A DNA stretch of 16,824 nt, from the NCBI GenBank assembly GCA_024655865.1, contig JANLFM010000027.1, positions 1 through 16,824 on the forward strand. Direction: 5' to 3'. Under the pieces are notes generated by a model. The model was not told the DNA's origin. It saw only the letters and a program-made list of their open reading frames with translations, and did no database searches. The DNA comes from Caldisericota bacterium. GTDB lineage: Bacteria; Caldisericota; JANLFM01. The translations under genes and the position numbers were made by a program. This document shows, one piece after another, positions 1,108 to 16,824 of this stretch. Each line of letters starts with the position of its first letter. Position 1 is the stretch's first letter.

Positions 1108-1320
1108 CCTGGAAGTAAGAGATTAGCTTTTGTAGGGAGCCAACAAAACTCCTTCTTTGAATCGCGGTAGGCTTTCTCATGTGCAGGGCTCCTTTCTGTT
1201 ATTTATTCCAGAGTGAGGGTAACCCCGCACTTCCTTTTTGTCTATTAAGAGTATCGCATCTATCTGAACTTTTTCAGGGCAGAAGGGAAATTCCCTCTAA
1301 ATTCCAAGAAGGAGTCCTAA
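1108..1320. other. Intergenic region with no firm gene
   Basis: This stretch separates the zinc-ribbon/PH-like gene from the restriction-modification genes. A 53-codon plus-strand frame opening at an ATG near 1179 runs on to about 1340, but its composition is poor in typical protein signatures and it has no ribosome binding site. I see no terminator hairpin with a T-run and no recognisable RNA. It may hold the 5' part of a decayed gene whose remaining part is the short frame at 1321-1530. Confidence 0.4.
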
Positions 1321-1530
1321 GTAGTTATTGCTCGCAATAATTTACCTTTACTGCTTCTTGACCCATTATGGCTATCGTATTTCCATAAAGGAGAAAGGTC
1401 ACCTTCTGGTGATGAGATGTTGATTCTCCTTCAAAAGGTTTATGGCTTTACAAAGATGACACAAATTAGGTTACACTATCCTTATGCTGAGTTTTTAACT
1501 CCTCTCGCCCAGGAAGATATGGAGGAATAA
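1321..1530 (+). pseudogene. Short open frame (69 codons), possible gene remnant upstream of the endonuclease
   Basis: This frame is open from just after a TAA at 1318-1320 to a TAA at 1528-1530. It ends three bases before the endonuclease ATG and contains that gene's ribosome binding site (GGAGGA, 1521-1526), an arrangement typical of translational coupling. The peptide, with segments such as LILLQKVYGFTKMTQIRLHY and a terminal AQEDMEE, reads like the C-terminal part of a soluble protein. There is no good start: an AAGGAG at 1309-1314 lies 12 bases before an in-frame ATT, and the first ATG (1417) lacks a ribosome binding site. I do not recognise the family. It is either the 3' remnant of a gene disrupted upstream, a small gene with an odd start, or chance. 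Confidence 0.3.
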
Positions 1531-1533
1531 GAA

Positions 1534-2166
1534 ATGCCCGATCGCCTCAGAGAAATATTTGAAGATGAAAGGCTGATAGAGAAAATTAAAAGACGCCTAC
1601 CATACCTATTCCAGCTGGCGGAATTAGAAAGCTCCCGAGCAGGTATAACAGGAATGGAGGTGGGATCTGTGCGCGAAAGGATCGTCGTCGCCTTGCTTAT
1701 TTACAAATTCGGCGAGGAAAATGTGGAAACTGAAATACCCATCACGGAACCGGAGGTGGACGCCAAACTTTTTGGAGAACCCATTTCTGTAAAAACCATC
1801 ACGGGCAAAAGCCTGGGAGGGGTTAAGCTTATATGGACAGTAGATGCTCAGAAGGCCCAAGAATTTTATGAAAGTTATCATCCTCATTGCCATATTCTCT
1901 TAGTGCAAATTAACTGGAACGACACTGGAGGGTTCTATTTCATTCCCCTAACGGTTCAACAACGGATTTTTGCTAAAATAGGGAGAGAAAACTATATCAA
2001 ACTCCCCAAGCCCGGAACAAACCCAAGAGGGGTGGAGATTACTAAAGAGGCTCTCATGGGCTTAATTGGGGATAAAGAGAGTCAGAACATTATGATAAAC
2101 TGGTATAAAACAAAGATTGAATTTAACTCCTATAAAAGATGGGTAGACCTCTGGAGGGAGGACTGA
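1534..2166 (+). CDS. ThaI-family type II restriction endonuclease
   Basis: A 210-residue protein that I recognise as a ThaI-type restriction endonuclease. The prototype from Thermoplasma acidophilum cuts CGCG; specificity here is inferred only from family resemblance. A PD-(D/E)XK-like active site is visible: the segment TEPEVDAKLFGEPISVKTIT (71-90) supplies Asp76 and Lys87, with acidic residues at Glu74 and Glu82, and an earlier conserved-looking GSVRER (44-49). The C-terminal half carries the family-like KLPKPGTNPRGVEIT segment and a terminal KRWVDLWRED. It starts at an ATG with GGAGGA seven bases upstream, and its TGA directly abuts the ATG of the downstream methyltransferase, so the two are co-transcribed. 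It would act as a dimer on unmethylated invading DNA, protected by that methylase. Length and motifs are intact, so the gene looks functional. Confidence 0.78.
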   Translation: MPDRLREIFEDERLIEKIKRRLPYLFQLAELESSRAGITGMEVGSVRERIVVALLIYKFGEENVETEIPITEPEVDAKLFGEPISVKTITGKSLGGVKLIWTVDAQKAQEFYESYHPHCHILLVQINWNDTGGFYFIPLTVQQRIFAKIGRENYIKLPKPGTNPRGVEITKEALMGLIGDKESQNIMINWYKTKIEFNSYKRWVDLWRED

Positions 2167-3093
2167 ATGGGGGTCTATAAGAGAAAGAACGGAACGAGAA
2201 CGAGTGTTTTTGGTTCCCCGGGGAGGATCAATCACGATTCTGCTCCTTTTTATTCCAGCAGGTTATACGAGGGGTTGCCCAAAGAGGAAATAGTCATGTA
2301 TTCAGAAAATTCCATTCCTTCTCAATTTATGGATAGGATTTTTTGCAAAACCAGCGAAAATATGGAGGAGCTTCCGGACAACAGCGTTCATCTCATGGTC
2401 ACATCTCCTCCTTACAATGTAGGAAAGGAGTACGACAAAAACCTTACATTAAACGAGTACCGGGCCTTTTTAAAGCGGGTATGGAATGAAGTTAAAAGGG
2501 TCCTCGTGCCTGGGGGCAGAGCCTGCATTAACGTTGCTAATTTGGGTAGGAAGCCTTATATCCCTCTCCATGCTTTTGTCGTTGAGGACATGCTTGATTT
2601 GGGGTTTTTAATGCGCGGTGAAATCATCTGGAACAAAGCTTCCTCGAGCAGCCCTTCTACTGCCTGGGGTAGCTGGCTCTCGGCGAAAAATCCTACTCTG
2701 AGGGATATTCACGAATATATACTGGTCTTCTCTAAAGGCATGTTTACTAGGGAGAACGCCGGGAGGAAAAGCACGATTTCCAAAGAGGAGTTTTTAGAGT
2801 TCACAAAAAGCGTCTGGACTTTTGACGCCGAATCCGCAACAAAAGTGGGTCATCCCGCTCCCTTTCCTGTGGAATTACCCTATCGCTTAATCCAGCTTTA
2901 TACCTTTGAGGAAGAAGTAGTTCTGGATCCTTTTATGGGAAGTGGACAGGCGGCCATCGCAGCGATTAAAACCCACCGTCATTTCGTCGGGTATGAGATC
3001 AATGAGGAATATGTAAAATTAGCTGAAAGGCGAATCAGAGAATTCTCCTCAATCTTTAATGCCCCCAAGCTGTTCAATTTTCAAGGAAGATAG
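2167..3093 (+). CDS. Site-specific DNA methyltransferase, class beta (modification partner of the ThaI-like endonuclease)
   Basis: A 308-residue S-adenosylmethionine-dependent DNA methylase. The catalytic motif IV, TSPPYN at residues 79-84, comes first and the AdoMet-binding motif I, DPFMGSG at 254-260, comes last; this order defines class beta. SPPY is typical of N4-cytosine methylases, although N6-adenine enzymes of this class can look alike. The target-recognition region should lie between them, around 160-220. The ATG directly follows the endonuclease stop codon, so it is the modification half of a type II pair. The first 43 residues lack methylase motifs. An internal ATG at 2296, with AGAGGA a few bases before it, is a credible alternative start giving 265 residues. 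The gene is intact and ends 66 bp from the converging broken gene downstream. Confidence 0.88.
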   Translation: MGVYKRKNGTRTSVFGSPGRINHDSAPFYSSRLYEGLPKEEIVMYSENSIPSQFMDRIFCKTSENMEELPDNSVHLMVTSPPYNVGKEYDKNLTLNEYRAFLKRVWNEVKRVLVPGGRACINVANLGRKPYIPLHAFVVEDMLDLGFLMRGEIIWNKASSSSPSTAWGSWLSAKNPTLRDIHEYILVFSKGMFTRENAGRKSTISKEEFLEFTKSVWTFDAESATKVGHPAPFPVELPYRLIQLYTFEEEVVLDPFMGSGQAAIAAIKTHRHFVGYEINEEYVKLAERRIREFSSIFNAPKLFNFQGR

Positions 3094-3159
3094 CGGGCAG
3101 GCTTTCCTAATTGGTAAAATTTTATGTAGCGCTAAAAATATGGTCGAATTTCCTTTGCT

Positions 3160-4536
3160 TCATTCTGCGATATTTTCTGTAACTAAGGTTTCGTGGACGA
3201 TGCGAAGGAATTTATTAAAGTACTTATGGTAATAAGCATCGGTGGATGCGTAATCCAACCTCCCATCTTGTCCTTCTCTTTTGAAGAATTTTTCTAATAT
3301 ACGGAATGCCAGCGCTTCAGCTATTACTTCAGCCAAAACAGTGTAATAGGGAAGAGATTTAATACCTGGGTACCCTTGTTCAGTGGGAGTCCCCAAATAT
3401 TTTTTTATGGTTGGATTTTTTGCGCCTATTTTTAATAAGTATGGGTCTTTATCATCCCATTTGTATCTTGTCGTTCCATAGTCTTCTTCGACTGGTTCAA
3501 ATTTTAGTTTTACTCCACTTCGAGGGGGCTCGTGCTCCTCAACTTTAACCTGAGTTAAGGCCGGTTCAAATCCATTTACTTTGGCAGTAATTTTCCCTCT
3601 TGCCTGTAACTGCCGGCCAAAAACACCAAATTGTCCCGAATAAACCTCCGGAAAAGGTGTTGCGCGCAATCGGCATTTTCCTCCACCTTTTACAACGATT
3701 TCAGGGTGATCGGACTCAATTTCTGCAAGGATTGGATCGGATAATGTTATATTAGATTTTAGCCACAAAACAAGTGTTTTCTCCTTATTAATTGGTAAGT
3801 GATAAAATGGTTTATCAAAGGTAAGTCCTTCTGGGGGCAAGGGTGGGGGTGGAGGCTCAATGACTTTTACAAGAACTAAATTACTATAATTGAGGAAATG
3901 CGCCTCAATTACTGATTCTGCTCCAACTTTTTGCCCCTCTAAAGTAAATGTAGCCCTTCCAATTTTTTTATCTTCGGAGAGTTTTTTGAAATAAACAGGT
4001 GAAGTGCGAATTTTTATGTCCTCCGGGTCACTGCTTTCCAAACTAATTGGTAAAGATTCATCCAACTCTTCATTGTGCTTTACTAAGATTGAAAAGGTTT
4101 TTGCTTGGTTTACTACGATAGGTTGCTCCTCAGGAGGAATAATGTACAACCAATTCCTAATGTTTCTGCATTGGGAAAATCCATTAAATCGGTAGGGATC
4201 TCATCTTCAAGTTCTTTAAATTCTTTTTCAAAAAGGGGAGAAATTTCTTTTGAAAGGCGGTTTAATCTTTTGTTGAGATTTTCATCTGTAACGTCTCTTT
4301 TGGGCGGGGATTCGGCATTTTTAAGCTTATCGACGAACTTTTGAAGGACCTCCTTTCCTTTCTTATAAAGCATTTGAGTGGAGGGATGCTCATAGAGTAA
4401 CCCATCCCGGAAATCCTCCATTTCCTCAGATCAGTCCCGCAGAAAGGGCAGAAGTACCTCCAGGATCTCAGAAGGTATTCTTCCTCCACATTGGACAAGC
4501 GAACCTATGGGTGTTAGGGGCTTTCAATTTCCTCAC
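3160..4536 (-). pseudogene. Broken zinc-ribbon/beta-rich protein, three apparent single-base deletions
   Basis: Three overlapping minus-strand frames join into one 459-residue protein if one base is restored at each of about 4487, 4430 and 4149. Starting at GTG 4536, the rebuilt N-terminus has CPMC (14-17, the last Cys depending on the missing base) and CPFC (30-33): a standard C-x2-C-x12-C-x2-C zinc ribbon. A helical region rich in Lys and Glu follows (about 37-115). The last 329 residues (3160-4149) form an intact frame. They contain beta-rich, Ig-like stretches on both sides of a proline linker (EPPPPPLPPEG) and end in a helical domain beginning near YYTVLAEVIAEALAFRILEK. I do not recognise the family. 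The beta-rich part recalls accessory regions of large ATPase-type defence proteins, but no ATPase motif is present. The shifts are confined to the first third, while every neighbouring long gene is intact, which favours real decay over poor sequence. The intact C-terminal frame could still be translated from TTG 4149. Confidence 0.65.
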
Positions 4537-4752
4537 GTTTCACCGCCCTTTTCTTATTTTCTTAATTAGTATTAAATCTATTGGGCATAAACATTTACGA
4601 AGAAGTCCTTCCTTTCCTTGATTTTTATGTCTCCTCTCCTTTAGATTAATTAAAAATGAAAAGCTTAGGAGGAGGCTTAATCACCTTGGGGAAAGGCGCC
4701 ATTCGGAGACCAATCGCTGGAACCATCGCAAGTTTTATTTTAAATCACATCC
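4537..4752. other. Divergent intergenic region before the five-gene operon
   Basis: This AT-rich gap lies between the minus-strand broken gene and the helicase and should hold the operon promoter. A weak candidate is TTGATT (4618-4623) and TAGATT (4642-4647), 18 bases apart, each matching four of six consensus bases. A 34-codon plus-strand frame starts at ATG 4656 and ends at TAG 4758-4760, overlapping the helicase start by eight bases (ATGAATAG). It could be a leader peptide or chance. The helicase ATG itself has no ribosome binding site, so coupling to this leader is one way it might be translated. Confidence 0.35.
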
Positions 4753-7700
4753 ATGAATAGCCAATATCATCACATCAAACCAGGTGTTATCCTGGAGGGT
4801 GAAGTTTTCCCTGAACCTATTAAAGTTGTTTTGGTTCAACCTATTGGTGGAGATCTTAAAGTTGGGGGACAAGGGCTTCGCTCTAAGGAATATATTGAAC
4901 GTCTATTAAATCAATACCAGGTTAATTCTCTGAAGATCATTCCTTCCGAAGCTCCTTTTGATGGAGATGCCTTCAGGTTCCGCTTAGGGATCGAAGCGGC
5001 TCGTCTGAGCTTGGCCTACGAATATGATCCGTATTTTTCTCTTTCTATCTCCCGGGTAGATCCTCTTCCTCATCAATTGGAAGCGGTTTATCACTACATC
5101 TTACCATTGCCTCAAATTAGATTTCTTCTGGCTGACGATGCCGGGGCGGGAAAAACGATAATGGCCGGTCTACTATTAAAAGAGCTAAAGCTTAGAGGCC
5201 TGGTTTCCCGGACCCTTATTGTAGCTCCTGCTAACCTTGCTTTTCAGTGGCAGCGAGAGATGCGCGATCGCTTTCAGGAGAGATTTGAAATTATTCGCGG
5301 AGTAGATTTGAAAAATGCCTATGGCGTTAACCCCTGGCAGGATAAACCCCAGGTAATAACTTCCATAGACTGGGCCAAGCGCGAAGATGTAAAAGAAAGT
5401 CTCAGCCGCACAGATTGGGACTTAATTATTGTTGATGAAGCTCACCGTATGTCTGCAAGCGACCCAGATCATAAAACTGACCGCTACCAGTTAGGTGAAC
5501 TTCTTTCCCAAAAAACTCACCACTTTTTGCTATTGACAGGCACGCCTCACAAAGGTGACCCTGAGAATTTTTGCCTTTTCCTGCAGTTACTGGATAAGGA
5601 CGTATATGGCGACGTAAAAAGTTTGGAAGAAGCCATGGAACGGAATCAGGCTCCTTTCTATTTAAGACGAACCAAAGAGGCTTTGGTTACTTTTCCTGAC
5701 CCGGAGACTGGAAAGGTCCGCAAGCTATTCACCAATCGGGAGGTGCGCACAGCGCGCTTTAATTTAGATGGACCAGAGTTTGAGTTTTATGAATCCCTGA
5801 CCCGCTATGTGCAGGATCAGTCTATTCGCGCCGCCCAGGACGATTCCGCTCGTGGTCGAGCTTTAGGCTTCACGATGGCCATGTACCAGCGTCGTTTTGC
5901 CTCCAGCGTTTTTGCAGTCAGAAGGAGCCTTCAACGCCGCCTCCAAAAATTAGAAGACTCCTTAAACCATCCTCAAGTGGAGATTGCGAGAGACCTCTCT
6001 CGTTTGGAAGATATTGACGAGCTTCCTGAAGATGAAGTGACCAAATTAGAGGAGGAAATTGAACAAGCTTCTCTTCCTTCCGAACGCCAATTAATTCAAA
6101 AAGAAATAGAAGACCTAAAAGTTTTAATCCAAAAAGCTCTCGCTTTAGAAGAACGGGAGATTTCCTCCAAGTTGAAAAAACTACATGAGGTGCTAACTGA
6201 CCAAAATATCTTTGCGGATACCAATACCAAGTTGCTCATTTTTACGGAATTCAAGGACACTTTGGACTACTTAGTCGAAACACTTAGGCGTTGGGGGCTT
6301 AGGGTAACACAAATTCATGGGGGCATGAAAATTGGTGACCGCAATACACCAGGTACCCGGCTTTTCGCAGAACTGGAATTTCGGGATAAAGTGCAGGTTA
6401 TGGTGGCCACTGAGGCTGCAGGAGAAGGTATTAACCTTCAATTCTGTTGGCTCATGATAAATTTTGATATCCCTTGGAACCCCATGCGTCTTGAGCAACG
6501 CATGGGTCGTATACACCGGTATGGGCAAGACCGGGATTGCCTCATCTTCAACTTCGTAGCTGCTAATACCCGAGAGGGCCAGGTTTTGGAACGCCTTCTG
6601 GAACGCCTGCATGAGATCCGAAGAGAATTGGGAAGCGATCAGGTCTTTGATGTAGTAGGGGAGGTTGTCCCTGGGAATTACTTGGAGCGTTTATTCAGGG
6701 AACTCTATGCAGGGCGTATCACCCAGCAAACACTTATGGACCGTTTAGTTCATGATTTTGATCGCGAGCGCTTCGCAAGAATTTGCCAATCGACATTAGA
6801 GGGGTTAGCCAAGAAAGAGCTTAATCTTTCAGCAATTCTGGGGCGTACGGCCGAGGCCAAAGAGCGGCGTTTAGTTCCCGAAGTAGTAGAGCAATTCTTC
6901 CTTCAGGCGTCTCCTATAGCTGGACTTCCCATTCCTCGAGGAAAAAACGGAATCTATGCTGTGGGTCGTATTCCTCGACACCTCCAGTCCGTGGGGGATC
7001 GTCTTGAGCCTCGTTTTGGAAAGCTGGGGAAGGAGTATCGCCTGATAACTTTTGACAAAAAGCACCTTGCCCGGGATCCCACCTTAGAGTGGGTTACTCC
7101 AGGTCATCCCCTTTTTGAGACAATCCGCGAGGAAGTGTGGGAGAAGGTCCAGGCTGATCTCCATCGAGGCGCTATCTTTTACGACCTGGATCGCACTTCT
7201 CCCTCCCGCCTTGAGGTTTACGCGGCCTCAATCGCGGACGGTCGGGGAAATACGCTCCACTGGGAGCTCTTTGTGGTGGAGGTTACCGATTCCGGGGAAA
7301 TGCGTCTGCGCCAGCCCACGGTTTTTTTGGACCTGGTTCCTGCGGGGGCCCAAGCTCAAATAAATCCGCCCATTATTCCGGAGCGCACTGAGTTAGAGAG
7401 CTTTTTACTTGAAAATGGGCTAAAACCTTTTCTCCATAAGGTCCAAGAGGGACGCCAGAAAGAGTTGGATACTATCTCCCAGCATATAGAGGTCAGCCTC
7501 CTTACCCTAATTGACCGCCAGCAACGCCAAATCGGAGAGCTCATCGAGCGACAGCAGAGAGGAGAGGATGTTTCCTTAGCGCTTGGCGAAGCGGAACGAA
7601 GGCTTGAGGAATTGAATGGTCGCTTGGAGCGTCGGCGCCTGGAAATCCAACGGGAGCGGCAATTGGCCATCGCTGATCTCTCCCACCTGGGTTCTGCCCT

Positions 7701-8121
7701 GGTTTATCCGCACCCTGAGCGGAAGAATTTTATACCTCTAATTCCGGATGAAGAAATTGAACGCATTGCCATGGAAGAAGCCCTGCGCTATGAGAGGGAA
7801 AGGGGTTGGATTCCAGAGGATGTCTCTGCTGAAGACCGAGGTTTTGACATCCTCTCTCGACATCCCCAAGGAGGTGGAGTTCGTTTTATTGAGGTTAAGG
7901 GGCGTGCAGAACCAGGACCTGTTTTGCTCACACCCAATGAGTACAAAACCGCTGAACGGCTCAGAGAGGATTACTGGCTCTATATAGTCTTGGATTGCAG
8001 AAAAGTGCCTCGCCTTGTTCCCATTCAGGATCCCTTCCGGTTGAGATGGGAGCCTGTTTTAAGAATAGATTTCTACCAATGGAGTACCCAAAACCTTGAT
8101 TGGAAGAACTTCGAAGGTTGA
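4753..8121 (+). CDS. SNF2-type helicase with C-terminal DUF3883 domain
   Basis: A 1122-residue superfamily 2 helicase/translocase, first gene of the five-gene operon. The N-terminal helicase lobe has Walker A ADDAGAGKT (127-135), motif II DEAH (228-231) and motif III TGTPHKGD (262-269). Charged, coiled-coil-like helices follow (about 390-485). The second lobe starts near residue 490 (LLIFTEFKDTLDYL), with VATEAAGEGINLQ near 550 and QRMGRIHRYGQ near 583. Another Arg/Glu-rich coiled coil lies around 925-975. The C-terminus (about 1005-1085) is DUF3883-like: Asp1032, then FIEVKGR with Glu1047 and Lys1049, a PD-(D/E)XK-like arrangement that could be nucleolytic. It should translocate on double-stranded DNA using ATP. 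Similar helicases occur in DISARM (DrmD) and in helicase-methylase-ATPase defence loci. No ribosome binding site precedes the ATG, but the HHIKPGVILEG opening fits the usual family start. No truncation is seen. Confidence 0.88.
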   Translation: MNSQYHHIKPGVILEGEVFPEPIKVVLVQPIGGDLKVGGQGLRSKEYIERLLNQYQVNSLKIIPSEAPFDGDAFRFRLGIEAARLSLAYEYDPYFSLSISRVDPLPHQLEAVYHYILPLPQIRFLLADDAGAGKTIMAGLLLKELKLRGLVSRTLIVAPANLAFQWQREMRDRFQERFEIIRGVDLKNAYGVNPWQDKPQVITSIDWAKREDVKESLSRTDWDLIIVDEAHRMSASDPDHKTDRYQLGELLSQKTHHFLLLTGTPHKGDPENFCLFLQLLDKDVYGDVKSLEEAMERNQAPFYLRRTKEALVTFPDPETGKVRKLFTNREVRTARFNLDGPEFEFYESLTRYVQDQSIRAAQDDSARGRALGFTMAMYQRRFASSVFAVRRSLQRRLQKLEDSLNHPQVEIARDLSRLEDIDELPEDEVTKLEEEIEQASLPSERQLIQKEIEDLKVLIQKALALEEREISSKLKKLHEVLTDQNIFADTNTKLLIFTEFKDTLDYLVETLRRWGLRVTQIHGGMKIGDRNTPGTRLFAELEFRDKVQVMVATEAAGEGINLQFCWLMINFDIPWNPMRLEQRMGRIHRYGQDRDCLIFNFVAANTREGQVLERLLERLHEIRRELGSDQVFDVVGEVVPGNYLERLFRELYAGRITQQTLMDRLVHDFDRERFARICQSTLEGLAKKELNLSAILGRTAEAKERRLVPEVVEQFFLQASPIAGLPIPRGKNGIYAVGRIPRHLQSVGDRLEPRFGKLGKEYRLITFDKKHLARDPTLEWVTPGHPLFETIREEVWEKVQADLHRGAIFYDLDRTSPSRLEVYAASIADGRGNTLHWELFVVEVTDSGEMRLRQPTVFLDLVPAGAQAQINPPIIPERTELESFLLENGLKPFLHKVQEGRQKELDTISQHIEVSLLTLIDRQQRQIGELIERQQRGEDVSLALGEAERRLEELNGRLERRRLEIQRERQLAIADLSHLGSALVYPHPERKNFIPLIPDEEIERIAMEEALRYERERGWIPEDVSAEDRGFDILSRHPQGGGVRFIEVKGRAEPGPVLLTPNEYKTAERLREDYWLYIVLDCRKVPRLVPIQDPFRLRWEPVLRIDFYQWSTQNLDWKNFEG

Positions 8122-8133
8122 AGAAGGAGGATA

Positions 8134-8994
8134 ATGTTCATTGGCTTCTTCGATGATACGGAAGTTTTGGCGAGCGGGAAAATAGAACCAGACGTTTATG
8201 TTTTTGGCGGTTACTTTATCCTGCAAAGCCAATTGGAAAAATTCCAGAGACGAATTTTCCAGATAAAAGAAGAATATGGGTTAAAAGGACACTTCCCCAT
8301 CAAATGGAATTGGAAAGCCTCAGAGCTGAAATGTTTTTATGAGGAGCAGAGGCTTTTAGAAAATTATAATAAGCTTTTCAAAATTGGGAATCAGATTCGG
8401 CGCCCCTTGCTACAACTGCTGAAAGAATTCCATGCAATTGTTATGGCATGTGGATTGTATCGTCAGGCCCAAACTACAAAACATGTGGATTGTTATCGCT
8501 GGGCTTTTGAAAATTTATTGCAGAGGATTGGAATGATGGCAAAAAGTCACAATATCGGAAGCAGTTCTGAAAATAACTTTATAATCGTTGTGGACTGGCC
8601 TCAAGGAGGAGTGAATAAAAGATTATTTGATATTTATATGTCCGGTTATCATGAAGGAAAAGCGATGGACTCTAATCAGGCATATTTCTCAGGCCCCCTT
8701 TCCACTTATCACTTTGTGGATTCCCTTTTTCATAGTTCCACTATTCATTGCTCCTCCCTTCAAGTCGCCGACCTTGTTGCAGGGGTCCTGAAGGATTTTA
8801 TCCGTTGGTGCATAAAGGATGACCATGCCCAGCGTGTAAGGGAATACTTTTCAATTTTAAGTTCATGCTTTTATTCAAGCGACAAAGGGGTCATCAACGG
8901 TTATGGTTTAAAGATATCAGGGATTAATATCGACTTGGATGGAAAGATTCTGGAATTGTTAAAGACAGAAGAAAGCGAGGTTGTTCATGAATAG
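8134..8994 (+). CDS. DUF3800 domain protein, predicted RNase H-like
   Basis: A 286-residue protein of the DUF3800 family, which is predicted to have an RNase H-like fold; its biochemical role is not established. The N-terminal strand reads FIGFFDDTEV, where family members usually show a D-E-S/T-G signature, so the second acidic position is Asp here. Other candidate acidic residues include the Asp in IIVVDWPQGG. The C-terminal family hallmark is SSLQVADLVAGVLKDFI, containing the LQ-x-AD-L-x-A pattern. It starts 12 bp after the helicase stop, with AAGGAGG just before the ATG, and ends with an 8-bp overlap (ATGAATAG) with the methylase gene, so it is an integral operon member. A nuclease role in the defence system is possible but inferred. 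G+C is lower here (about 42%) than in the following methylase. Confidence 0.72.
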   Translation: MFIGFFDDTEVLASGKIEPDVYVFGGYFILQSQLEKFQRRIFQIKEEYGLKGHFPIKWNWKASELKCFYEEQRLLENYNKLFKIGNQIRRPLLQLLKEFHAIVMACGLYRQAQTTKHVDCYRWAFENLLQRIGMMAKSHNIGSSSENNFIIVVDWPQGGVNKRLFDIYMSGYHEGKAMDSNQAYFSGPLSTYHFVDSLFHSSTIHCSSLQVADLVAGVLKDFIRWCIKDDHAQRVREYFSILSSCFYSSDKGVINGYGLKISGINIDLDGKILELLKTEESEVVHE

Positions 8995-11890
8995 GATTCG
9001 CCGCTTAATTGAGTCTGATATGCCCATCGGAATCATCTCGGGGCATTCTCGCCGAGACCAAAATATAAAAAGGGGACATCTGCACACTTTTCATGTCTGG
9101 TGGGCAACCCGACCTCTTGCCGCCTGTAGAGCTGTGCTCATGGCTTCTCTTCTTCCCGACCCAGCCGACGACCGTTGCCCGGAAGAATTCCGCCTGGTTG
9201 CCCGGGAGACCCTAAAAGATTTCACTGGCCGCAACCTTTCCGACCCCTTGGAGTTGGGCCGGAAACTGCTGGACTTCGTGGGCAATTTCGCGGACTGGGA
9301 TAACGTCCACAACCCGCAGTTCGTTAAAGCCGCCCGCCAGCTTGTTCAGGCGGCACATCCGGAGGGCCCGCCCATGGTATTGGACCCCTTCGCCGGCATC
9401 GGCTCCATCCCCTTTGAGGCCCTGCGCATCGGGGCCGACGCCTATGCCTCCGACCTCAACCCGGTGGCGGTGCTCCTTGAGAAGGTGGCGCTGGAGTATC
9501 TCCCCACCTACGGCCACAAGCTGGCTGAAGCCGTCCGCAAGTGGGGCCAGTGGGTACGAGATCGAGCAGCCGAGGAATTGAACGAGTTTTATCCCAAGGA
9601 GGCAGACGGCTCAATTCCTCTGGCTTACCTCTGGGCCCGGACCATCCGCTGCGAGGGACCCGGCTGTGGGGCCGAGGTGCCCCTGGTGGGGCTCCTATGG
9701 CTCTCCCGCAGGGAGAAACAGCGGGTCGCTCTCCGCTACCGGAGCGATAAAGCCCGCAAAGAAGTGGTCTTTGAAGTCTTCCACCCCAAATCCGAAAGCG
9801 AGGTCCAGCCGCCCATCGTAAGGCGCTTTTCTGCCACCTGCCCCGTGTGCGGCTACACCACGCCCTACGCGCGGGTGCGGGAGCAGATCCGGGCCAAACG
9901 GGGCGGAACGCGCGACGCCCGCCTCATCGCTGTCATCACCCTGAAACGCGACGGGAGCCGGGGCTTCCGCTTGGCTACGGAAAGGGATGTGGAAGTGGCG
10001 GAGCTTGCCGCCCAGGAACTCGCCCGCCGGGAGCGGGAGCATGCAGGCCCCCTGCCCCTGGTGCCGGATGAGCCTATTCCCCCAGAGCGGGCGCAGGGTA
10101 ATTCCGGTTTTCGAATGCTGTTGTACGGCATGGAGACCTGGGGCGACCTCTTCACACTCCGCCAGGCGCTGGCCCTTGCCACCTTCGTCCGCCTGGTGCG
10201 AGAGGCCCACGCCGAGATTCTCCAGGAGACCGGCGACGCCGGCTTCGCCCGGGCCGTCGCCACTTCCCTGGCGGTAGCGGTGAGCTCGATGAGTCCATAC
10301 CACGCCAGCACGTCTTTCAATCACCCTGCTTTCGGTATTAGGGAGGTATTTTTAGGCAGTGGTCTCCCAATGAAACCCGATTTTGCCGAGGGCAATCCTC
10401 TCATTCCGCGGTTGGTGCCAGGGTTCTCTTACTACTTAGAACAGGTGGCCCAGGTGCTGGAGCGGGAAGGCTCTCAAGGCTTTCGGCCCGGCACCGTCCG
10501 GCAGGGCTCGGCCACGACCATCCCCCTTCCCGACGGCTTCGCCCCGTACGTGGTCACTGACCCGCCTTACTATGATGCCATCGCCTACGCCGACCTATCC
10601 TCATTCTGCTATGTATGGCTCAAACGCATGGTTGGAGATCTTCATTCCGACCTCTTTCGCTTTCCGCTTCCACCAAAAGCTGAAGAATGTATCATGGACC
10701 CGCCAGAAAAGCCGAGGGAGTTCTTCGAGACCACCATGGAGCGGTCCCTGGCCGAATGCCGCCGGGTGCTCCGGCCCGATGGGCTGGCAGTGGTGCTCTT
10801 TGCTCACAAGGGCACGGCCGGCTGGGAGGCGCTACTGAACGCATTGGTCCGGGCCGGCTGGACGGTCACCGCCTCCTGGCCCATTGAGACGGAGCGGGCA
10901 AGCCGAAAGCAAGCCGTGGGATCCGCAGTTCTTCAGAGTTCGGTCTTCCTGGTCTGCCGTCCCCGTCTCGAAAACGCTGGCGTAGGCGACTGGCGACGGG
11001 TGCTGGAGGAGATGAACCGCAAGGTGGCCGAGTGGCTTCCTCGCTTGGAAAAAGAAGGAATCCATGGAGCGGACGCCATTTTCGCCTGCATCGGCCCAGC
11101 CCTTGAAGTCTATAGCCGTTACGAGCGGGTGGAGACTGCGAGCGGGCAGGTGATCCCCTTAGGTGATTTGAAAAACGGTAAAGGCCAGATTCTCCAGCGT
11201 GGTTGCCTTTCCTATGTATGGGAGGCTGTGGCTCGGGAAGCTTTGAAGCTAATATTCCCAGAAGCTGATCCTGCGGGGTTTGAGGAAGATGCTCGTGTGA
11301 CCGCCATGTGGCTCTGGGCTTTGCGGGCTAGGATCAACGGAGAAAGAAGCGGGAAAACCCAGGAGGAAATATTGGAACCAGAAGAGGAAACTGGGGAAAT
11401 ACAGGGAAAGAAGTCATTCGGCTTCTACCTCCCCTACGACGACGCCCGACTCATTATCCAGGGGGTAGGAGCCAGTGAGGAAAGGCTCACGCGTCCAGGT
11501 GGCATTCTTGAGGTGGAGGGTAATTCAGCCCGCCTCCTTTCCGCTGGGGAAAGACGGCGTTTCCTTTTAAGGCAAGATTCAAGGACACAAAGGGTGCATC
11601 GTCGCCGAGGACAACAACAAACGCTTTTTGAGGAGATTTCTTCGGAACCTGAGGTTCTTGAGAATATCGAGCCTGGCCACACAACCTTAGACCGTTTACA
11701 CCAGGCCATGCTTTTATTCGGGGAGGGTCGAAATGAATCCCTACGCTGGCTCCTTGTGGACGAAGGGGTTGGCCAGGATGGAAAATTTTGGCGGTTAGCG
11801 GATGCGCTTTCTCGGCTTTATTCACCCTCATCTCCCGAGAAGCGCTTAGTAGATGGCCTTCTTGCAAGAAAGAAGTCCTGGGGCCTATGA
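8987..11890 (+). CDS. DUF1156 DNA methylase (defence-associated)
   Basis: A 967-residue AdoMet-dependent DNA methyltransferase, probably N6-adenine. The N-terminus matches DUF1156 (GHLHTFHVWWATRPLAACRAV). AdoMet motif I is DPFAGIGS (133-140), followed by SDLNPVA. The catalytic motif is TDPPYYD (524-530). Between them sits a large insert with a split zinc site: Cys222, Cys227, Cys285, Cys288. Motif I precedes motif IV by about 390 residues, unlike the beta-class enzyme at 2167. I chose ATG 8987 (GAGG six bases upstream, overlapping the previous stop) over the TTG at 8981. It overlaps the next gene by four bases (ATGA). It likely marks self DNA for the operon. From about 9340 to 11000 the G+C is roughly 63-73%, interrupted by patches near 50% (around 10320-10440 and 10600-10690), then falls to about 55%; this suggests a mosaic origin. 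Confidence 0.88.
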   Translation: MNRIRRLIESDMPIGIISGHSRRDQNIKRGHLHTFHVWWATRPLAACRAVLMASLLPDPADDRCPEEFRLVARETLKDFTGRNLSDPLELGRKLLDFVGNFADWDNVHNPQFVKAARQLVQAAHPEGPPMVLDPFAGIGSIPFEALRIGADAYASDLNPVAVLLEKVALEYLPTYGHKLAEAVRKWGQWVRDRAAEELNEFYPKEADGSIPLAYLWARTIRCEGPGCGAEVPLVGLLWLSRREKQRVALRYRSDKARKEVVFEVFHPKSESEVQPPIVRRFSATCPVCGYTTPYARVREQIRAKRGGTRDARLIAVITLKRDGSRGFRLATERDVEVAELAAQELARREREHAGPLPLVPDEPIPPERAQGNSGFRMLLYGMETWGDLFTLRQALALATFVRLVREAHAEILQETGDAGFARAVATSLAVAVSSMSPYHASTSFNHPAFGIREVFLGSGLPMKPDFAEGNPLIPRLVPGFSYYLEQVAQVLEREGSQGFRPGTVRQGSATTIPLPDGFAPYVVTDPPYYDAIAYADLSSFCYVWLKRMVGDLHSDLFRFPLPPKAEECIMDPPEKPREFFETTMERSLAECRRVLRPDGLAVVLFAHKGTAGWEALLNALVRAGWTVTASWPIETERASRKQAVGSAVLQSSVFLVCRPRLENAGVGDWRRVLEEMNRKVAEWLPRLEKEGIHGADAIFACIGPALEVYSRYERVETASGQVIPLGDLKNGKGQILQRGCLSYVWEAVAREALKLIFPEADPAGFEEDARVTAMWLWALRARINGERSGKTQEEILEPEEETGEIQGKKSFGFYLPYDDARLIIQGVGASEERLTRPGGILEVEGNSARLLSAGERRRFLLRQDSRTQRVHRRRGQQQTLFEEISSEPEVLENIEPGHTTLDRLHQAMLLFGEGRNESLRWLLVDEGVGQDGKFWRLADALSRLYSPSSPEKRLVDGLLARKKSWGL

Positions 11891-12495
11891 GCATCATTTC
11901 GGATCCTAAAGAATGGTATAAAGAATGGTATAAAGTTTTCCGCAGGTTATTAAAATATTCGCGTTGGGCAGAACCCCTCCGGGAATCAGCGCTTGCCGGA
12001 GAATTGGGCAGGTGGACGGAGCAACTTACAGGTGCTGTTGTCGCAACTTGTGATTCCTTAGGTTGGAAAGCTGTTGCAAAAGGTTATCCTGGCCAAGCAC
12101 TGCCCATTTCCAAGCAGGAATATCTCGCGGTTGATGTGATGGCTTTCCCTTCCCAGGTGGAACCGTGCTGGCAAAGACCTATAGCCGCCTTTGAATTGGA
12201 AAACCAGTTGGATCCAAATTCTATCTCGTATTCACTTTGGAAAGTCAGCATGATTCGCTGTAACTTTGGTGGTGTTTTCTGCTACTGCCGACAGCCAGAA
12301 GAAATAAAAGATTTACTTAGGTCTCTAACTGAAAGTGTGATGGTTCCTTTATTCTCCCCTGTAGACTCTCTTGATGCCGTAGTTTTTTTAGTAGTCGGCA
12401 CAAGGAGCAAAGCGGAGGATTTCCCTGATGGTTTTTTTAGACCTTATTTTTGGGATAGGGCATATGGGCAGTTTCGTCTTCCCACCATTTTTTAA
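11887..12495 (+). CDS. Operon protein with restriction-nuclease-like D...ExE motif, family not recognised
   Basis: A 202-residue protein starting at ATG 11887, which overlaps the methylase stop as ATGA; an in-frame upstream ATG at 11788 lies inside the methylase and is unlikely. The central part runs QEYLAVDVMAF, then, after about 12 residues, PIAAFELENQLDPNSISYSL and WKVSMIRCNFGGVFCY. An acidic strand (VDV) followed by an E-x-E strand and a helix containing SYSLWK resembles the PD-(D/E)XK nuclease core, with Glu in place of the usual Lys. That is an inference from motif order; the fold is not proven. A perfect 12-bp tandem duplication at 11907-11930 gives the repeated KEWYKEWY near the N-terminus. 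The DUF499 gene follows after 18 bp. It could be the effector nuclease of the operon, or a non-catalytic nuclease-fold subunit. Confidence 0.6.
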   Translation: MSIISDPKEWYKEWYKVFRRLLKYSRWAEPLRESALAGELGRWTEQLTGAVVATCDSLGWKAVAKGYPGQALPISKQEYLAVDVMAFPSQVEPCWQRPIAAFELENQLDPNSISYSLWKVSMIRCNFGGVFCYCRQPEEIKDLLRSLTESVMVPLFSPVDSLDAVVFLVVGTRSKAEDFPDGFFRPYFWDRAYGQFRLPTIF

Positions 12496-12513
12496 GGGAG
12501 GTGATGTTTTCAA
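12496..12513 (+). promoter_or_regulatory. Strong ribosome binding site for the DUF499 gene
   Basis: GGGAGGTGAT closely matches the anti-Shine-Dalgarno complement and lies nine bases before the ATG at 12514. It is the strongest such site in the operon, suggesting that the ATPase is translated at high level independently of the gene before it. Confidence 0.7.
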
Positions 12514-15288
12514 ATGTTTAGATTGAAACCTTGGTATCAGGTGGCGGTTCCTCGAGAAGACCTGCGTTCTGGTCAACCTTTGGATGCCTCAGAGTTTGCC
12601 ATCCATTTAGACCATGTGATGGGTGGGCGCGCTCCCCGGGATTATCTGGACCCGGAGCGCTTTTTTGCCCGTACCTACCTCACAGAGGCTTACCGCAAAA
12701 TGACCGTTGAGGTGATGCGCCGCCTGGCAGGGGATGTTTCGGGTACTTCCCCTGGTATCAACCTTACTACCCAATTTGGTGGTGGTAAAACTCACTTTCT
12801 TACGCTTCTTTATCACCTTTTTACCCAGGGAGAAAAGGCAAAGAATTTTACCGGGGTTGGAGAATTGCTCAAGTCCGCTAACTTAGATACGGTGCCCCGG
12901 GCCCGGGTTGCTGTTTTTATCGGTAACTGGTTTGACTTCCTCGTGGGGGTTGGCGTTAATGGTGAACCCAAGCGCCAGACCCCTTGGGGTGATTTGGCAT
13001 GGCAGCTTGGAGGCCCTTCCCTATATTCTCTGGTGGAACAACATGACCGGGCAGGAATTGTTCCGGGAGGGGAAGTCCTGCAGAAGATCTTCACTGGGGA
13101 GCCAACGCTCATTCTAATGGACGAGGTGCTGAATTTTATTCGTCGCACTCGAGAGGCAGGAGGCCCTTATGCCAAATTGGGCTCGCAAATGTACAGTTTT
13201 CTGGATGTTTTGACCCGGGAGATAGCTGGCACTTCTAAGGTTGTCCTTGTTGTATCCCTTCCCATGTCCCAGTATGAAATGACCCAGGATGATGAAGCGG
13301 ACTATCAGCGGTTGGAAAAGCTCCTCGATCGGCTTAGTAAAGCGGTCTTGTTGAGCCAGAAGGAAGAAATTGCGGAGATTGTCCGACGGCGGTTATTTGA
13401 TCGTACTGGAGATGAGAAAGAAGTCCGTCTTACCACAAAGGCTTATGCCAATTGGATCAAAGAGCATTACCAACAACTCCCCGAGTGGTTCCCTGCAGAT
13501 CAAGCTGAAAAAATCTTTGAAGTTGCCTATCCTTTTCACCCCTCAGTAATTTCCGTTTTTGAACGCAAGTGGCAATCCCTTCCCAATTTTCAACGCACCA
13601 GGGGTATCCTTCGCCTTTTAGCGCTTTGGGTCTCTCATGCCTATCGGGAAGGCTTCCAATCCGCAACCAGAGAACCTTTGATCTCATTGGGGTCAGCTCC
13701 TTTAGCTGACAGCCTCTTTCGGGCCGCGGTTTTCGAGCAGTTGGGAGAGCAAAGACTGGAGGCCGCAATTCTTTCTGACATCGCAGGAGAGGGGGCCCAT
13801 GCCGTCCGCATGGATGCTGAAGCTCCGGAAACAATAAAGAGAGCTGGCCTCCATCAAAAAGTTGCCACTGCAGTCTTTTTTGAATCCTCGGGAGGCCAGG
13901 TTCGGAATGAGGCTACACTGCCTGAGATTCGGCTTGCCATAGGCGAGCCCGAAATGGAAATCGGGAACATTGAGACCGCCCTTGATGATCTGGTACGCCG
14001 TGGTTACTATTTTGAAGCCAAAGGGACAGCATATCGTATCAGCTATCGGCCGACGCTCAACAAAATTTTGGCGGATTTGAAAGCAGTTCTCTCTGGCCCC
14101 GAAGCTCAAGAGGAAATCCGGGAGAAGGTGCGGCAGACAATCCGGGAGGTCTTCCGCCCTGGCCCTCCGCTCGAGCGCCGCTTCTTCCCAGAAACGTCTT
14201 CTGATATTCCCGATATACCCTCTTTAAGCCTTGTGGTTATTGACCCCGAGCATGGTTGGGATATTGCAACGCGAAAAGAAACCCAATACCTTCTTGCGAG
14301 TATGATTCAAGAATGCGGCAATCGGGGTCGAACTTATAAAAGCGGGCTTCTCTTTGCAGTGGCCGAAGACGGTGCAGCTCTTTTTGAGGAGGCCAAAACT
14401 TTGCTTGCCTTGGAAAGGCTTGAAGATCCTTCAGAACAAGAGCGGCTCAAACTGGAACCTCCACAGGTCCAAGAACTAAGGGAAAAGAAGAGACGCAGTG
14501 AACGGGACCTGAAAGAGAAGGTTTGGAGCTCATACAGGCGCATTTTTCTTTTAGGAGAGGATAATTGCATTCAGGAAATAGATCTTGGTTTGCTTAATTC
14601 AAGTGCCGCCGACTCCTTAGTAGGATATATTGTTGCTCGTCTCAAGCAGGAGGGGCTTTTGGAGGAGAGCATCAGTCCGGAGTTCTTGGTCCGCAATTGG
14701 CCACCTGCTCTTCCTGAATGGAGCACTAAGGAGATCAGAAACATGTTTTTCGCCTCCCCAAAGTTTCCACGGTTGCTGGATCCTGGAATTTTACGCAGCA
14801 CGATTGCCCAGGGAGTGAAGACGGGCAAGTTCGGTTATGCTCTTAAGATGGATAGCCAATATCAGAATTTTCCTATCATTAATGATCAAGCTTTCGATCC
14901 TGGGGAGGTTGAAATTGAAGAATGGGCTGTCCTCCTTCGTCCAGAAAAAGTGTTGGAGCTGAAGAGAAATCCTCCCCAAGAAGAGGGGCCCGAAGAGGAA
15001 CCAAAAGAAGAAGAGGGGAAAGAAGTTAAAATTAAGCCCCCACAAGAGGAAGATTTAAAAAAGAAAAAAAGACTTTCTTGGGAAGGCCTCCTTTCTCCAC
15101 AAAAGTTGATGCTATTTTATACGAAAATTCTTTCCCGTTTTGCAACCGATCCCAGTCTTCATCTTCGAATCAGTTTTGAAGTGACTCCCGAGGCAGGAGT
15201 AACGGAGATACAGTTGGAAGAAATTAAAGCAGCTCTTTTAGAGCTTGGGCTGGATTTGGAAGGCCTGCAGGTTGAGGATCAAGAATAA
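12514..15288 (+). CDS. DUF499 AAA-type ATPase (defence-associated)
   Basis: A 924-residue P-loop ATPase and last gene of the operon. Walker A is TQFGGGKTH (86-94), the form characteristic of DUF499 proteins; Walker B is LILMDEV with Asp203 and Glu204. Residues of the LVVSLPMSQYEM segment (about 246-257) probably include sensor 1. The middle (about 270-520) is helical and winged-helix-like. Near residues 830-855 there is a Glu/Lys/Pro-rich low-complexity linker (for example PEEEPKEEEGKEV), followed by a compact C-terminal domain (LHLRISFEVTP to the end). DUF499 proteins recur next to DUF1156 methylases and helicases in predicted anti-phage loci, where they may act as nucleotide-driven regulators or motors. 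Length is typical and no break is seen. No clear terminator follows the TAA. Confidence 0.88.
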   Translation: MFRLKPWYQVAVPREDLRSGQPLDASEFAIHLDHVMGGRAPRDYLDPERFFARTYLTEAYRKMTVEVMRRLAGDVSGTSPGINLTTQFGGGKTHFLTLLYHLFTQGEKAKNFTGVGELLKSANLDTVPRARVAVFIGNWFDFLVGVGVNGEPKRQTPWGDLAWQLGGPSLYSLVEQHDRAGIVPGGEVLQKIFTGEPTLILMDEVLNFIRRTREAGGPYAKLGSQMYSFLDVLTREIAGTSKVVLVVSLPMSQYEMTQDDEADYQRLEKLLDRLSKAVLLSQKEEIAEIVRRRLFDRTGDEKEVRLTTKAYANWIKEHYQQLPEWFPADQAEKIFEVAYPFHPSVISVFERKWQSLPNFQRTRGILRLLALWVSHAYREGFQSATREPLISLGSAPLADSLFRAAVFEQLGEQRLEAAILSDIAGEGAHAVRMDAEAPETIKRAGLHQKVATAVFFESSGGQVRNEATLPEIRLAIGEPEMEIGNIETALDDLVRRGYYFEAKGTAYRISYRPTLNKILADLKAVLSGPEAQEEIREKVRQTIREVFRPGPPLERRFFPETSSDIPDIPSLSLVVIDPEHGWDIATRKETQYLLASMIQECGNRGRTYKSGLLFAVAEDGAALFEEAKTLLALERLEDPSEQERLKLEPPQVQELREKKRRSERDLKEKVWSSYRRIFLLGEDNCIQEIDLGLLNSSAADSLVGYIVARLKQEGLLEESISPEFLVRNWPPALPEWSTKEIRNMFFASPKFPRLLDPGILRSTIAQGVKTGKFGYALKMDSQYQNFPIINDQAFDPGEVEIEEWAVLLRPEKVLELKRNPPQEEGPEEEPKEEEGKEVKIKPPQEEDLKKKKRLSWEGLLSPQKLMLFYTKILSRFATDPSLHLRISFEVTPEAGVTEIQLEEIKAALLELGLDLEGLQVEDQE

Positions 15289-15346
15289 TTTTGTTCTCTC
15301 GAATGTAGCTTCAAAGCCTTCCATTTAAAAGGAAATTTAAGAAGAT
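15289..15346. other. AT-rich trailer after the operon
   Basis: Sequence directly after the DUF499 stop. I looked for a hairpin followed by a T-run and did not find a convincing one, so the operon's end of transcription is not located. Confidence 0.35.
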
Positions 15347-15517
15347 TCATGATTTTTTGACTCCAGAGGGCCCGCCGGGTCGGCTGCGGCGAGCCCCCTC
15401 GAGCCCCTGAAGAAAACGCTGGCGCATTTTTTCCAGGATCCCCACGAAGCACTTGAAGAGAAACTTTCTTCTTTTAAGGTAACCCATCAAGGCCATTAGA
15501 AAGCGCTTGCGCCTTCT
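15347..15517 (-). pseudogene. 56-codon minus-strand fragment, basic, family unknown
   Basis: This frame is open on the minus strand from just after a TAA to a TGA at 15347-15349. The peptide is strongly basic, with segments such as GYLKRRKFLFKCFVGILEKM and RQRFLQGLEGARRSRPGG. It has internal ATG codons but no ribosome binding site. Its regular hydrophobic-basic pattern suggests a real, truncated coding remnant rather than chance, possibly from a mobile element, since the flanking sequence is repeat-rich debris. I cannot assign it. Confidence 0.25.
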
Positions 15518-15998
15518 TTAAGCCATCCTCAGCGCTCCCCAGGGTCGATGTTTCCCTTTTTCTCATGATCGGCTTTTCCCTCCACAGCTCACCTAAAGGG
15601 TTTCCCATCTTCTTTGTGACCCCAAGCGTTGAGTTTCTCCAATTTTTTCCGCATTTTATTCCTGGGTCCTGGGAAGTGCCCGTTTATCTGTGCCCCCCGT
15701 GAAAACCTGAGCATTTTCACAGGGTGAACTCAGGCGGAGCAGAAGCGGGGGAGAAGCGGAGCATGTCCCTCTGTGGCAATTCCAGAGCCATTCACAGGGC
15801 AGGCTTCCAGGGCTGATCCCACCTTGAAAATTAAGCAGGGAGGTAAAACGGCCTGAAGGAAAAGCCCAAGGGGGTCTTCCCGTTGAAGGGATCTCCCAGG
15901 TGAAGGGATCCCCAGCCGGGGAAACGGGAGAAAGCATTCTGAAGGCCGAACTCAGAAGCCCCGCCTGCATTGAAAGAAGCTCCGGGCCCCAAAGAACC
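15518..15998. other. Non-coding debris between the operon and the DnaC-like fragment
   Basis: No supportable gene lies here. A minus-strand open frame across 15656-16135 is generated largely by the 36-bp tandem repeat and looks spurious. Visible structure is limited to the hairpin cluster at 15699-15734 and to GC-rich stretches that partly resemble the tandem repeat unit (for example around 15959-15970). Confidence 0.45.
15699..15734. repeat. Overlapping inverted repeats (alternative hairpins)
   Basis: GTGAAAA (15699-15705) pairs perfectly with TTTTCAC (15714-15720) across an 8-base loop. TTCAC (15716-15720) can instead pair with GTGAA (15724-15728) across a 3-base loop, extended by CCTGAG (15706-15711) with CTCAGG (15729-15734). 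The two folds exclude each other. Such nested repeats are found at ends of some insertion sequences and in regulatory hairpins. CTCAGGCGG at 15729-15737 is also the inverse of CCGCCTGAG, the start of the tandem repeat unit downstream. Confidence 0.6.
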
Positions 15999-16128
15999 CC
16001 GCCTGAGCTGACAGCGGCCCGCGCTCTCAATTCCCCGCCTGAGCCTACAGCGGCCCGCGCTCTCAATTCCCCGCCTGAGCCTACAGCGGCCCGCGCTCTC
16101 AATTCCCCGCCTGAGCTGACCACGGCCC
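15999..16128. repeat. 36-bp tandem repeat, three full copies and a partial fourth
   Basis: Copies begin at 15999, 16035, 16071 and 16107. Each starts CCGCCTGAGC and the full ones end GCTCTCAATTCC. Copies 2 and 3 are identical; copy 1 differs at two adjacent bases (TG in place of CT), and copy 4 diverges after about 15 bases. There are no unique spacers, so this is a minisatellite and not a CRISPR array. The unit is a multiple of three and, read on the minus strand, gives the peptide period GSGGELRARAAV, but nothing shows it is translated. Each full unit holds one CGCG, the site of the ThaI prototype. Confidence 0.85.
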
Positions 16129-16141
16129 CGCTCACCCTTCC

Positions 16142-16615
16142 TCAATTCCCCTCCTTCCCCTTCCTCATCCTGGCGATCCTCCTCCGGTAGTCCTCCCCTC
16201 CCACCTCCACTGGGAGGCACATCTCGATCAGCCTCCCGAAGGTGCGCTCCCCCAGGAACCCCTCCAGGGAGTTCAGGTCCAGGTTGGTGGTGGCGATCAG
16301 GAGCTTCAGGCTCTCGTATCTGGAGTTCACCAGCTGGTAGATCTTCTCCCTGGCCCACTCCGTGGCCTTCTCCGCCCCCAGATCGTCCAGGACGAGGAGG
16401 TCCGCCCTTAAGGCTTTCTCGAAGAGGGAAGCCTCGCTCTCCTCCTCCCGGTAGAGATTCCGCAGGGCGTTGAGGAATTCCACGGCGTTGAGGAAGACCG
16501 GGGAGTCCCCCCGCTCCAGAATGTCGTTGGCAATGCCCGCCGCCAGGTGGGATTTTCCCACCCGTTTTCTTTTGGGGCTTATTTCTTCCAAAGGAGAGGT
16601 CTTGAGAAATTTCAT
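16142..16615 (-). pseudogene. DnaC/DnaI-like helicase-loader ATPase fragment, truncated at the P-loop
   Basis: From about 16564 downward on the minus strand the frame reads as the AAA+ core of a DnaC-like replicative helicase loader: RVGKSHLAAGIAND (Walker A remnant), LLVLDDLG (Walker B), LLIATTNLDL (sensor 1) and ERTFGRLIEMCLPVEVGGEDYRR (shown only in part by its arginines at the C-terminus). The first half of the P-loop and the entire N-terminal domain are missing. The 18 residues before RVGKSH, from the ATG at 16615, are unrelated AT-rich sequence with no ribosome binding site, so the gene is a 5'-truncated remnant. IstB of IS21-type elements is the alternative, but the ATTNLDL and EVGGEDYRR features fit DnaC better, and no istA is present upstream. 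It points to past insertion or deletion next to the tRNA gene. Confidence 0.65.
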
Positions 16616-16624
16616 GGAATTTCA

Positions 16625-16653
16625 ATACATCTTTTTGAAAAAATTTGTATAAT
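16625..16653 (+). promoter_or_regulatory. Candidate promoter for the leader and tRNA-Thr
   Basis: A perfect TATAAT at 16648-16653 points toward the tRNA. At 17 bases upstream the -35 position (16625-16630, ATACAT) is poor, so the call rests on the -10 box and on its position in front of the hairpin leader and tRNA gene. Confidence 0.35.
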
Positions 16654-16685
16654 CTAAGTGGCTCCGTTATGGAGACTATTAAGGG

Positions 16686-16715
16686 AACTTCCGTAGTCAG
16701 CAGGAAAGTTTTTTT
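16686..16715 (+). terminator. Terminator-like hairpin in the tRNA leader
   Basis: AACTTCC (16686-16692) can pair with GGAAAGTT (16703-16710) with one bulged A, followed directly by a run of seven T (16709-16715). It lies 33 bases after the TATAAT box and about 55 bases before the tRNA, so it could end a short transcript or attenuate the tRNA transcript. The stem is short, hence low confidence. Confidence 0.3.
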
Positions 16716-16769
16716 ACGCCAGCGGAGCTATTGGTCGGTAGAATCGTGGTTTGATCAGGCTTTCATTGT

Positions 16770-16824
16770 GCCGGCGTAGCTCAGCGGTAGAGCTGCTGAA
16801 TCGTAATCAGCGGGTCGGGGGTTC
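16770..16824 (+). tRNA. tRNA-Thr, anticodon CGT, 3' end beyond the window
   Basis: The cloverleaf can be followed for 55 bases: acceptor strand GCCGGCG, D-arm GCTC-AGCGGTA-GAGC, anticodon stem GCTGA/TCAGC closing the loop ATCGTAA with anticodon CGT (reads codon ACG, threonine), a short variable loop, and the start of the T-arm with GGGGGTTC. The rest of the T-arm and the acceptor 3' strand are cut off by the window edge. tRNA genes are common integration targets, consistent with the defence genes and element debris beside it. Confidence 0.9.

Follow-up and report, generated by a model that had tools for sequence, protein, structure and literature searches.

PADLOC introduced the name Hma in 2021 for an operon of three genes (PMC8565338). 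In January 2026, a paper in NAR renamed it Type-1 BREX-related (BR); its main text gives the core as a DUF499 ATPase, a DUF1156 N6-methyltransferase and an Snf2 helicase-nuclease, and also describes auxiliary nucleases, located within Type-1 BR loci or close to them (PMC12839542). Systems of this kind are among the commonest of the little-studied defences. Here we analyse an Hma locus on a 16,824-nucleotide stretch of DNA from a Caldisericota bacterium (contig JANLFM010000027.1, positions 1 to 16,824; hereafter, the window), in which two further genes lie inside the operon: one encodes a DUF3800 protein, the other a protein of 202 residues, which we call D. The locus combines an established defence system with a DUF3800 passenger and with a member of a new family of predicted nucleases that is apparently restricted to Hma.

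An established core with two additional genes

Five intact, co-directional genes are contiguous on the + strand at positions 4753-15288. The first encodes HmaA (4753-8121, 1122 aa), assigned by PADLOC and Pfam as an SNF2-type helicase with a C-terminal NOV_C/DUF3883 PD-(D/E)XK nuclease domain. It is followed by the gene for the DUF3800 protein (8134-8994, 286 aa; Pfam DUF3800), by that for HmaB (8987-11890), an adenine-type DNA methyltransferase according to PADLOC, Pfam DUF1156 and alignment, by the D gene (11887-12495), characterized through its homologues in surveyed loci, its motif and an AF2 model, and finally by that for HmaC (12514-15288, 924 aa), a DUF499 AAA+ ATPase according to PADLOC and Pfam DUF499. 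Junction sequences show gaps of 12 bp between the HmaA and DUF3800 genes and of 18 bp between D and HmaC, as well as a 4-bp ATGA overlap between HmaB and D. The overlap between the DUF3800 gene and HmaB is 8 bp if HmaB starts at the ATG at 8987, an alternative TTG start being present at 8981. Gene coordinates and junctions thus agree in every respect with the layout described in an earlier sequence-only reading of the window.

The core is assigned to an established system, namely Hma (later Type-1 BR), because each of its three proteins is matched along most of its sequence by a PADLOC model (HmaA, E=1.6e-189; HmaB, E=7e-97; HmaC, E=3.8e-120). Pfam identifies Helicase_C, SNF2 and NOV_C in HmaA, the latter being the DUF3883-type C-terminal domain (residues 1002-1089), and an alignment of 73 HmaA sequences shows that the nuclease triad (D1032, E1047-x-K1049) is intact. 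HmaB matches DUF1156 (57.5 bits, cut-off 24) and contains the motifs DPFAGIG and DPPYY, while HmaC matches DUF499 (102.7 bits, cut-off 23) and carries a Walker A (GGGKTH) and a Walker B motif (LILMDE), its sequence showing no N-terminal HEPN fusion. No DUF3780, HKD helicase or PglZ, which are hallmarks of Types 2 and 3, was detected by Pfam in the ten main window proteins, and a search of the operon proteins against NCBIfam returned only further relatives below cut-off. The PADLOC and Pfam matches therefore confirm the previous identification of helicase, DUF1156 methylase and DUF499 ATPase as an Hma locus.

HmaB is compositionally unusual, with a GC content of 0.60 (0.66 at third codon positions) versus 0.40-0.49 in its four operon neighbours. 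The rise is confined to about residues 61-720 (window positions 9160-11140), a segment which may have been acquired from a GC-rich donor by replacement within the gene; the window HmaB also shows a long branch and an odd amino-acid make-up on the HmaB tree. Just upstream of the operon, at 1534-3093, is a complete Type II restriction-modification (R-M) pair, a ThaI-family restriction enzyme (Pfam E=3.5e-98) immediately followed by an N6/N4 methyltransferase, and this pair and the Hma region form a small defence island. Between them lie two overlapping ORFs on the - strand (3160-4421), which occupy different frames, encode 329 and 102 aa without any Pfam family and look like a broken gene. Downstream of HmaC are a 36-bp tandem repeat (15997-16133, 3.8 copies, 93% match), an adjacent ORF on the - strand (16142-16615) that reads by eye like a DnaC/IstB-type ATPase, and a partial tRNA gene (16770-16824, Rfam tRNA 35.6 bits) cut by the right end of the window.

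Two cargo slots within the operon

A scan of 84,980 species genomes for HmaB, based on an alignment of the protein, gave 304 relatives. We retained the 80 loci most similar in HmaB, each with flanks of 10 kb, and supplemented them with six loci from cyanobacterial plasmids. The survey thus covers the clade nearest the window HmaB (about 42-49% identity) rather than all Hma. The order HmaA-HmaB-HmaC is constant in the 68 surveyed loci that hold a complete core (68/68), and this arrangement is therefore not due to chance.

We defined two slots, the HmaA-HmaB gap (A-B, slot 1) and the HmaB-HmaC gap (B-C, slot 2), and considered a slot to be occupied when it exceeded 250 nt. In the 68 loci that show the complete core together with both gaps, the A-B slot is occupied in 51, the B-C slot in 59 and both in 44; 66 of the 68 have at least one slot occupied, the two exceptions being L086 and L097. 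Most of the cargo is of defence type (OLD-type ATPases, Schlafen, DarT/macro, PIN, GmrSD), and toxin-like genes (PIN/VapBC, DarT/macro, MNT) are also carried. Pfam assigns 15 slot proteins to OLD-type AAA ATPases, 10 to Schlafen AlbA_2, 8 to HD, 6 to PIN, 5 to DarT, 4 each to GmrSD_N and macro, and 3 to Uma2, among others. Some of this cargo uses both slots: OLD-AAA genes occur five times in A-B and six times in B-C, and Schlafen genes likewise (six and four times, respectively).

One arrangement was seen in the A-B slot only. An HD-domain protein (about 435-458 aa, six loci) is followed there by an unnamed protein of ~183 aa (seven loci), for example at L021:8110-10001 and L093:8054-9975, and this pair is possibly a slot-1 counterpart to the predicted slot-2 nuclease described below. 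The A-B slot of one locus (L096:7339-9963) encodes DarT-HD and macro-domain/DprA-like proteins, possibly a DarTG-like cassette inside an Hma operon.

More distant Hma loci with other cargo are found in Thermus, Gloeocapsa, Tolypothrix and Haloglomus. Compact Hma loci also exist: one without inserts is present in the phylum of the window itself (G005/L113, HmaB 31% identical), and others, with an HEPN-fused HmaC, are on plasmids of Rhodococcus, Meiothermus and Arthrobacter. HmaC is HEPN-fused in the compact, insert-free plasmid loci L122, L123 and L128 and short (about 820-1050 aa) in the cargo-rich clade. A fused HEPN may possibly trade off against cargo in the slots, but HEPN-fused HmaC together with cargo also exists (L121, L124, L125).

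The DUF3800 gene is sporadic cargo

The DUF3800 protein of the window scores 34.7 bits against the Pfam family (cut-off 21). DUF3800 (PF12686) has been modelled with an RNase H fold and is found with Cas12a2 (PMC10910872), and the window protein is accordingly predicted, by family, to be an RNase H-like nuclease. A Pfam scan of the slot proteins detected DUF3800 in only 3 of about 79 loci. It occupies the A-B slot in the window alone; in the two others (L029 and L063, Syntrophomonadaceae-type loci), where the proteins were identified by their DES/LQ.D sequence signatures, it is in the B-C slot. Searches yielded no close relative of the window protein among the surveyed loci and no homologue in 54 genomes of the window's phylum, and the only plasmid match (Thermus brockianus) is 25% identical. 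There was no match to PDB sequences, and no DUF3800-linked Rfam RNA motif in the operon. The gene is thus a sporadic, interchangeable passenger, and its proposed status as a core component has to be abandoned, as does a five-gene core subtype that includes it.

A protein family restricted to one slot

D is recurrent. It was detected in 27 of 79 informative loci (the window and 26 others), from archaea, cyanobacteria, Acidobacteriota, Chloroflexota, Planctomycetota, Verrucomicrobiota and Pseudomonadota, and is missing from the 52 others. Every copy lies downstream of HmaB and, wherever the contig continues, upstream of HmaC, i.e. in the B-C slot, where it is usually the sole occupant and often overlaps the HmaB stop. 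Profile searches conducted independently of HmaB covered the genomes of four phyla and recovered D in 4/339 (Nostoc phylum), 3/344 (Methanothrix phylum), 3/297 (Acidobacteria phylum) and 1/54 (window's phylum) of them. A single plasmid in PLSDB and a single contig in IMG/VR also carried it. Each real match adjoins HmaC, and also HmaB where the sequence reaches that far; in the genomes of these four phyla, PLSDB and IMG/VR, no D was found outside Hma. A copy in G915 is degenerate, as is the HmaC beside it. A weak match in L103 proved to be noise (30 residues with stops), and a long frame suggesting a fusion in L106 is a chance upstream extension, D beginning there at its own ATG.

Profile and HHalign comparisons of all slot proteins revealed no hidden distant homologue of D in other slots or in distant Hma loci, and none of the 170-210-aa hypothetical proteins of distant plasmid Hma loci is related to it. 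Slot cargo as such is thus not unique to the surveyed clade, as distant loci carry other cargo, but the D family is, as no relative of it was found in those loci. Neither Pfam nor PADLOC gives a match for the window D, and no match to Pfam, PADLOC, NCBIfam or PDB holds across members. D is therefore the founding member of an unnamed family that is apparently restricted to Hma and to a fixed slot.

On an HmaB tree of 87 loci, the presence of D requires 19 changes, at least 14 of which are forced by well-supported branches. Pairwise distances of D correlate with those of HmaB (r 0.72) and HmaC (r 0.71) over all loci; once the window is removed and close relatives are thinned, the correlation is r 0.14 (p 0.23) with HmaB and r 0.42 (p 0.02) with HmaC. 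These results show that the D gene has been repeatedly lost or regained, always at the same place, and that it is better tied to HmaC, albeit weakly, than to HmaB; as the thinned HmaB correlation is not significant, co-evolution with HmaB is unsupported.

The sequence-only reading had taken the five genes as a distinct subtype with D and DUF3800 as core parts, and had stated that their sporadic occurrence in otherwise identical loci would refute this. With DUF3800 sporadic and D absent from two thirds of similar loci, there is no fixed five-gene subtype. The claim for DUF3800 fails on the survey counts and that for D is weakened by them (27/79), although D does stand out as a recurrent component found in B-C only, despite having been gained or lost at least 14 times.

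Motif and predicted fold of D

The 22 full-length members of the family are 34-41% identical to the window protein, and all of them share E78, D83, E103-L-E105-N106 and Y115-x-L-W-K119. The acidic site (D83, E103-x-E105, with K119) is an ExE variant rather than ExK. BamHI has an ExE site, and an E-x-E site may be inactive in some PD-(D/E)XK families. At the start of the D gene, a 12-bp tandem repeat (2.4 copies, window positions 11907-11935) encodes EWYKEWYK.

The AF2 model of D is confident (pLDDT 87.5, pTM 0.87), and its alpha and beta elements follow one another in an order that would fit a PD-(D/E)XK core, with D83 and E103/E105 placed on the second and third strands and K119 in the next helix after E103-x-E105. 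Foldseek found nothing under E 0.001 in PDB and BFVD. The top VIA-align match is NucC (6p7p, Z 7.8, 149 residues, rmsd 3.9), five NucC entries being at or near the head of the matches listed, followed by OkrAI, EcoT38I, BamHI, BglII, PaqCI and Can2; domains of yeast acetyl-CoA carboxylase score almost as well. Because Z is below 8 and Foldseek E values are above 0.001, the fold match to NucC and restriction enzymes is suggestive only. Nevertheless, the D...ExE nuclease look previously noticed in the 202-residue protein is borne out by the D83/E103-x-E105 motif and the predicted fold, and an ExE-type PD-(D/E)XK nuclease is the best reading of D, an activity that we infer from motif and fold.

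Proposed mechanism and alternatives

We consider it rather probable that the locus is a restriction-modification-like Hma system, with two cargo slots and with D as a dedicated but optional second DNA-cutting effector. According to the published model of the family, HmaB would methylate host DNA, HmaC would use its ATPase to assemble or license a scanning complex, and the HmaA helicase-nuclease would destroy unmethylated invading DNA. D, with its predicted PD-(D/E)XK fold, would be translated from one mRNA together with HmaB and HmaC and would most likely act with the HmaB-HmaC complex, providing a second, optional cutting activity. It does not appear to compensate for a lost HmaA nuclease, an explanation we rejected: among loci that include this region of HmaA, the D-ExK triad is preserved in every one of the 21 with D and in 44 that lack D. 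D would thus add to the HmaA nuclease and not replace it, and since 52 of the 79 loci have no D, the system clearly works without it. The A-B and B-C gaps would serve as cargo slots in the surveyed clade, and DUF3800 would be one of many interchangeable passengers, probably a nuclease acting as a backup or suicide effector.

A more specific proposal, which we put forward tentatively and rate a little below even chances, is that D is a dedicated fourth component of Hma, an ExE nuclease restricted to this system and gated by HmaC. If so, HmaABC in this clade would be a chassis offering two bays for cargo, with D tied to one of them and interchangeable effectors entering the other.

Alternatively, D might be the cognate, sequence-specific restriction enzyme of HmaB, the two forming a Type II R-M pair nested in Hma in which D would cut the site recognized by HmaB whenever it lacks methylation. 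Their translational coupling (in many loci the genes overlap by 4 bp or nearly abut), the BamHI-like E-x-E motif and the presence of OkrAI, BamHI and BglII among the structural neighbours would fit such a pair, yet 52 of 79 loci have HmaB but no D, and partners in a strict pair should co-vary, whereas the thinned D and HmaB distances do not (r 0.14, p 0.23). We therefore regard a nested pair as unlikely. It also seems improbable that D has a degenerate nuclease fold and serves, without catalysis, as an adaptor or sensor that helps HmaC to bind DNA or HmaA. The usual third-position lysine is indeed missing from its E-x-E site, D always adjoins HmaC, and its VIA-align neighbours include non-nuclease folds; however, the invariance of the acidic residues and of K119 in 22 diverse members goes beyond the needs of a scaffold. 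Finally, both D and DUF3800 could be independent toxin-like or selfish passengers with no functional tie to Hma, as is perhaps suggested by the PIN/VapBC, DarT/macro, MNT and other toxin-like genes found in the slots. This would suit DUF3800, with its sporadic distribution (3 of about 79 loci), reasonably well. D, unlike the freely moving OLD-AAA and Schlafen genes, occupies one slot only and was not found outside Hma, and for the two genes taken together we consider this explanation very unlikely.

On the favoured reading, that of an optional second effector, a small predicted nuclease occurring in one slot of one system, in archaea as well as bacteria, offers a testable partner for HmaC. In addition, the two-slot cargo pattern marks sites of effector swapping and provides a practical route to more effectors.

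Comparison with described systems

Among the matches listed, the best structural neighbours of the D model include NucC, BamHI and OkrAI, with the same arrangement of acidic residues, the ExE site of BamHI included. D differs from NucC and the ExE restriction endonucleases in having no sequence similarity to any PDB chain, with Z below 8. Similarly, the DUF3800 protein belongs to PF12686 by its score above the Pfam cut-off, without a close homologue in other Hma loci. The operon as a whole has the same three core proteins in the same gene order as the Hma of PADLOC, but that system is defined as three genes (PMC8565338), whereas the window operon holds two extra genes inside. The likeness to Type-1 BR extends to the DUF499 ATPase, the DUF1156 methyltransferase and the Snf2 helicase with its C-terminal PD-(D/E)XK domain, the motif of which is intact here; the main text describing Type-1 BR makes no mention of DUF3800 and names no slot-specific family of about 200 residues (PMC12839542). 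The same text describes in-locus nucleases which compensate for a missing helicase nuclease or back it up (PMC12839542), and in the present locus D accompanies an HmaA whose nuclease motif is intact.
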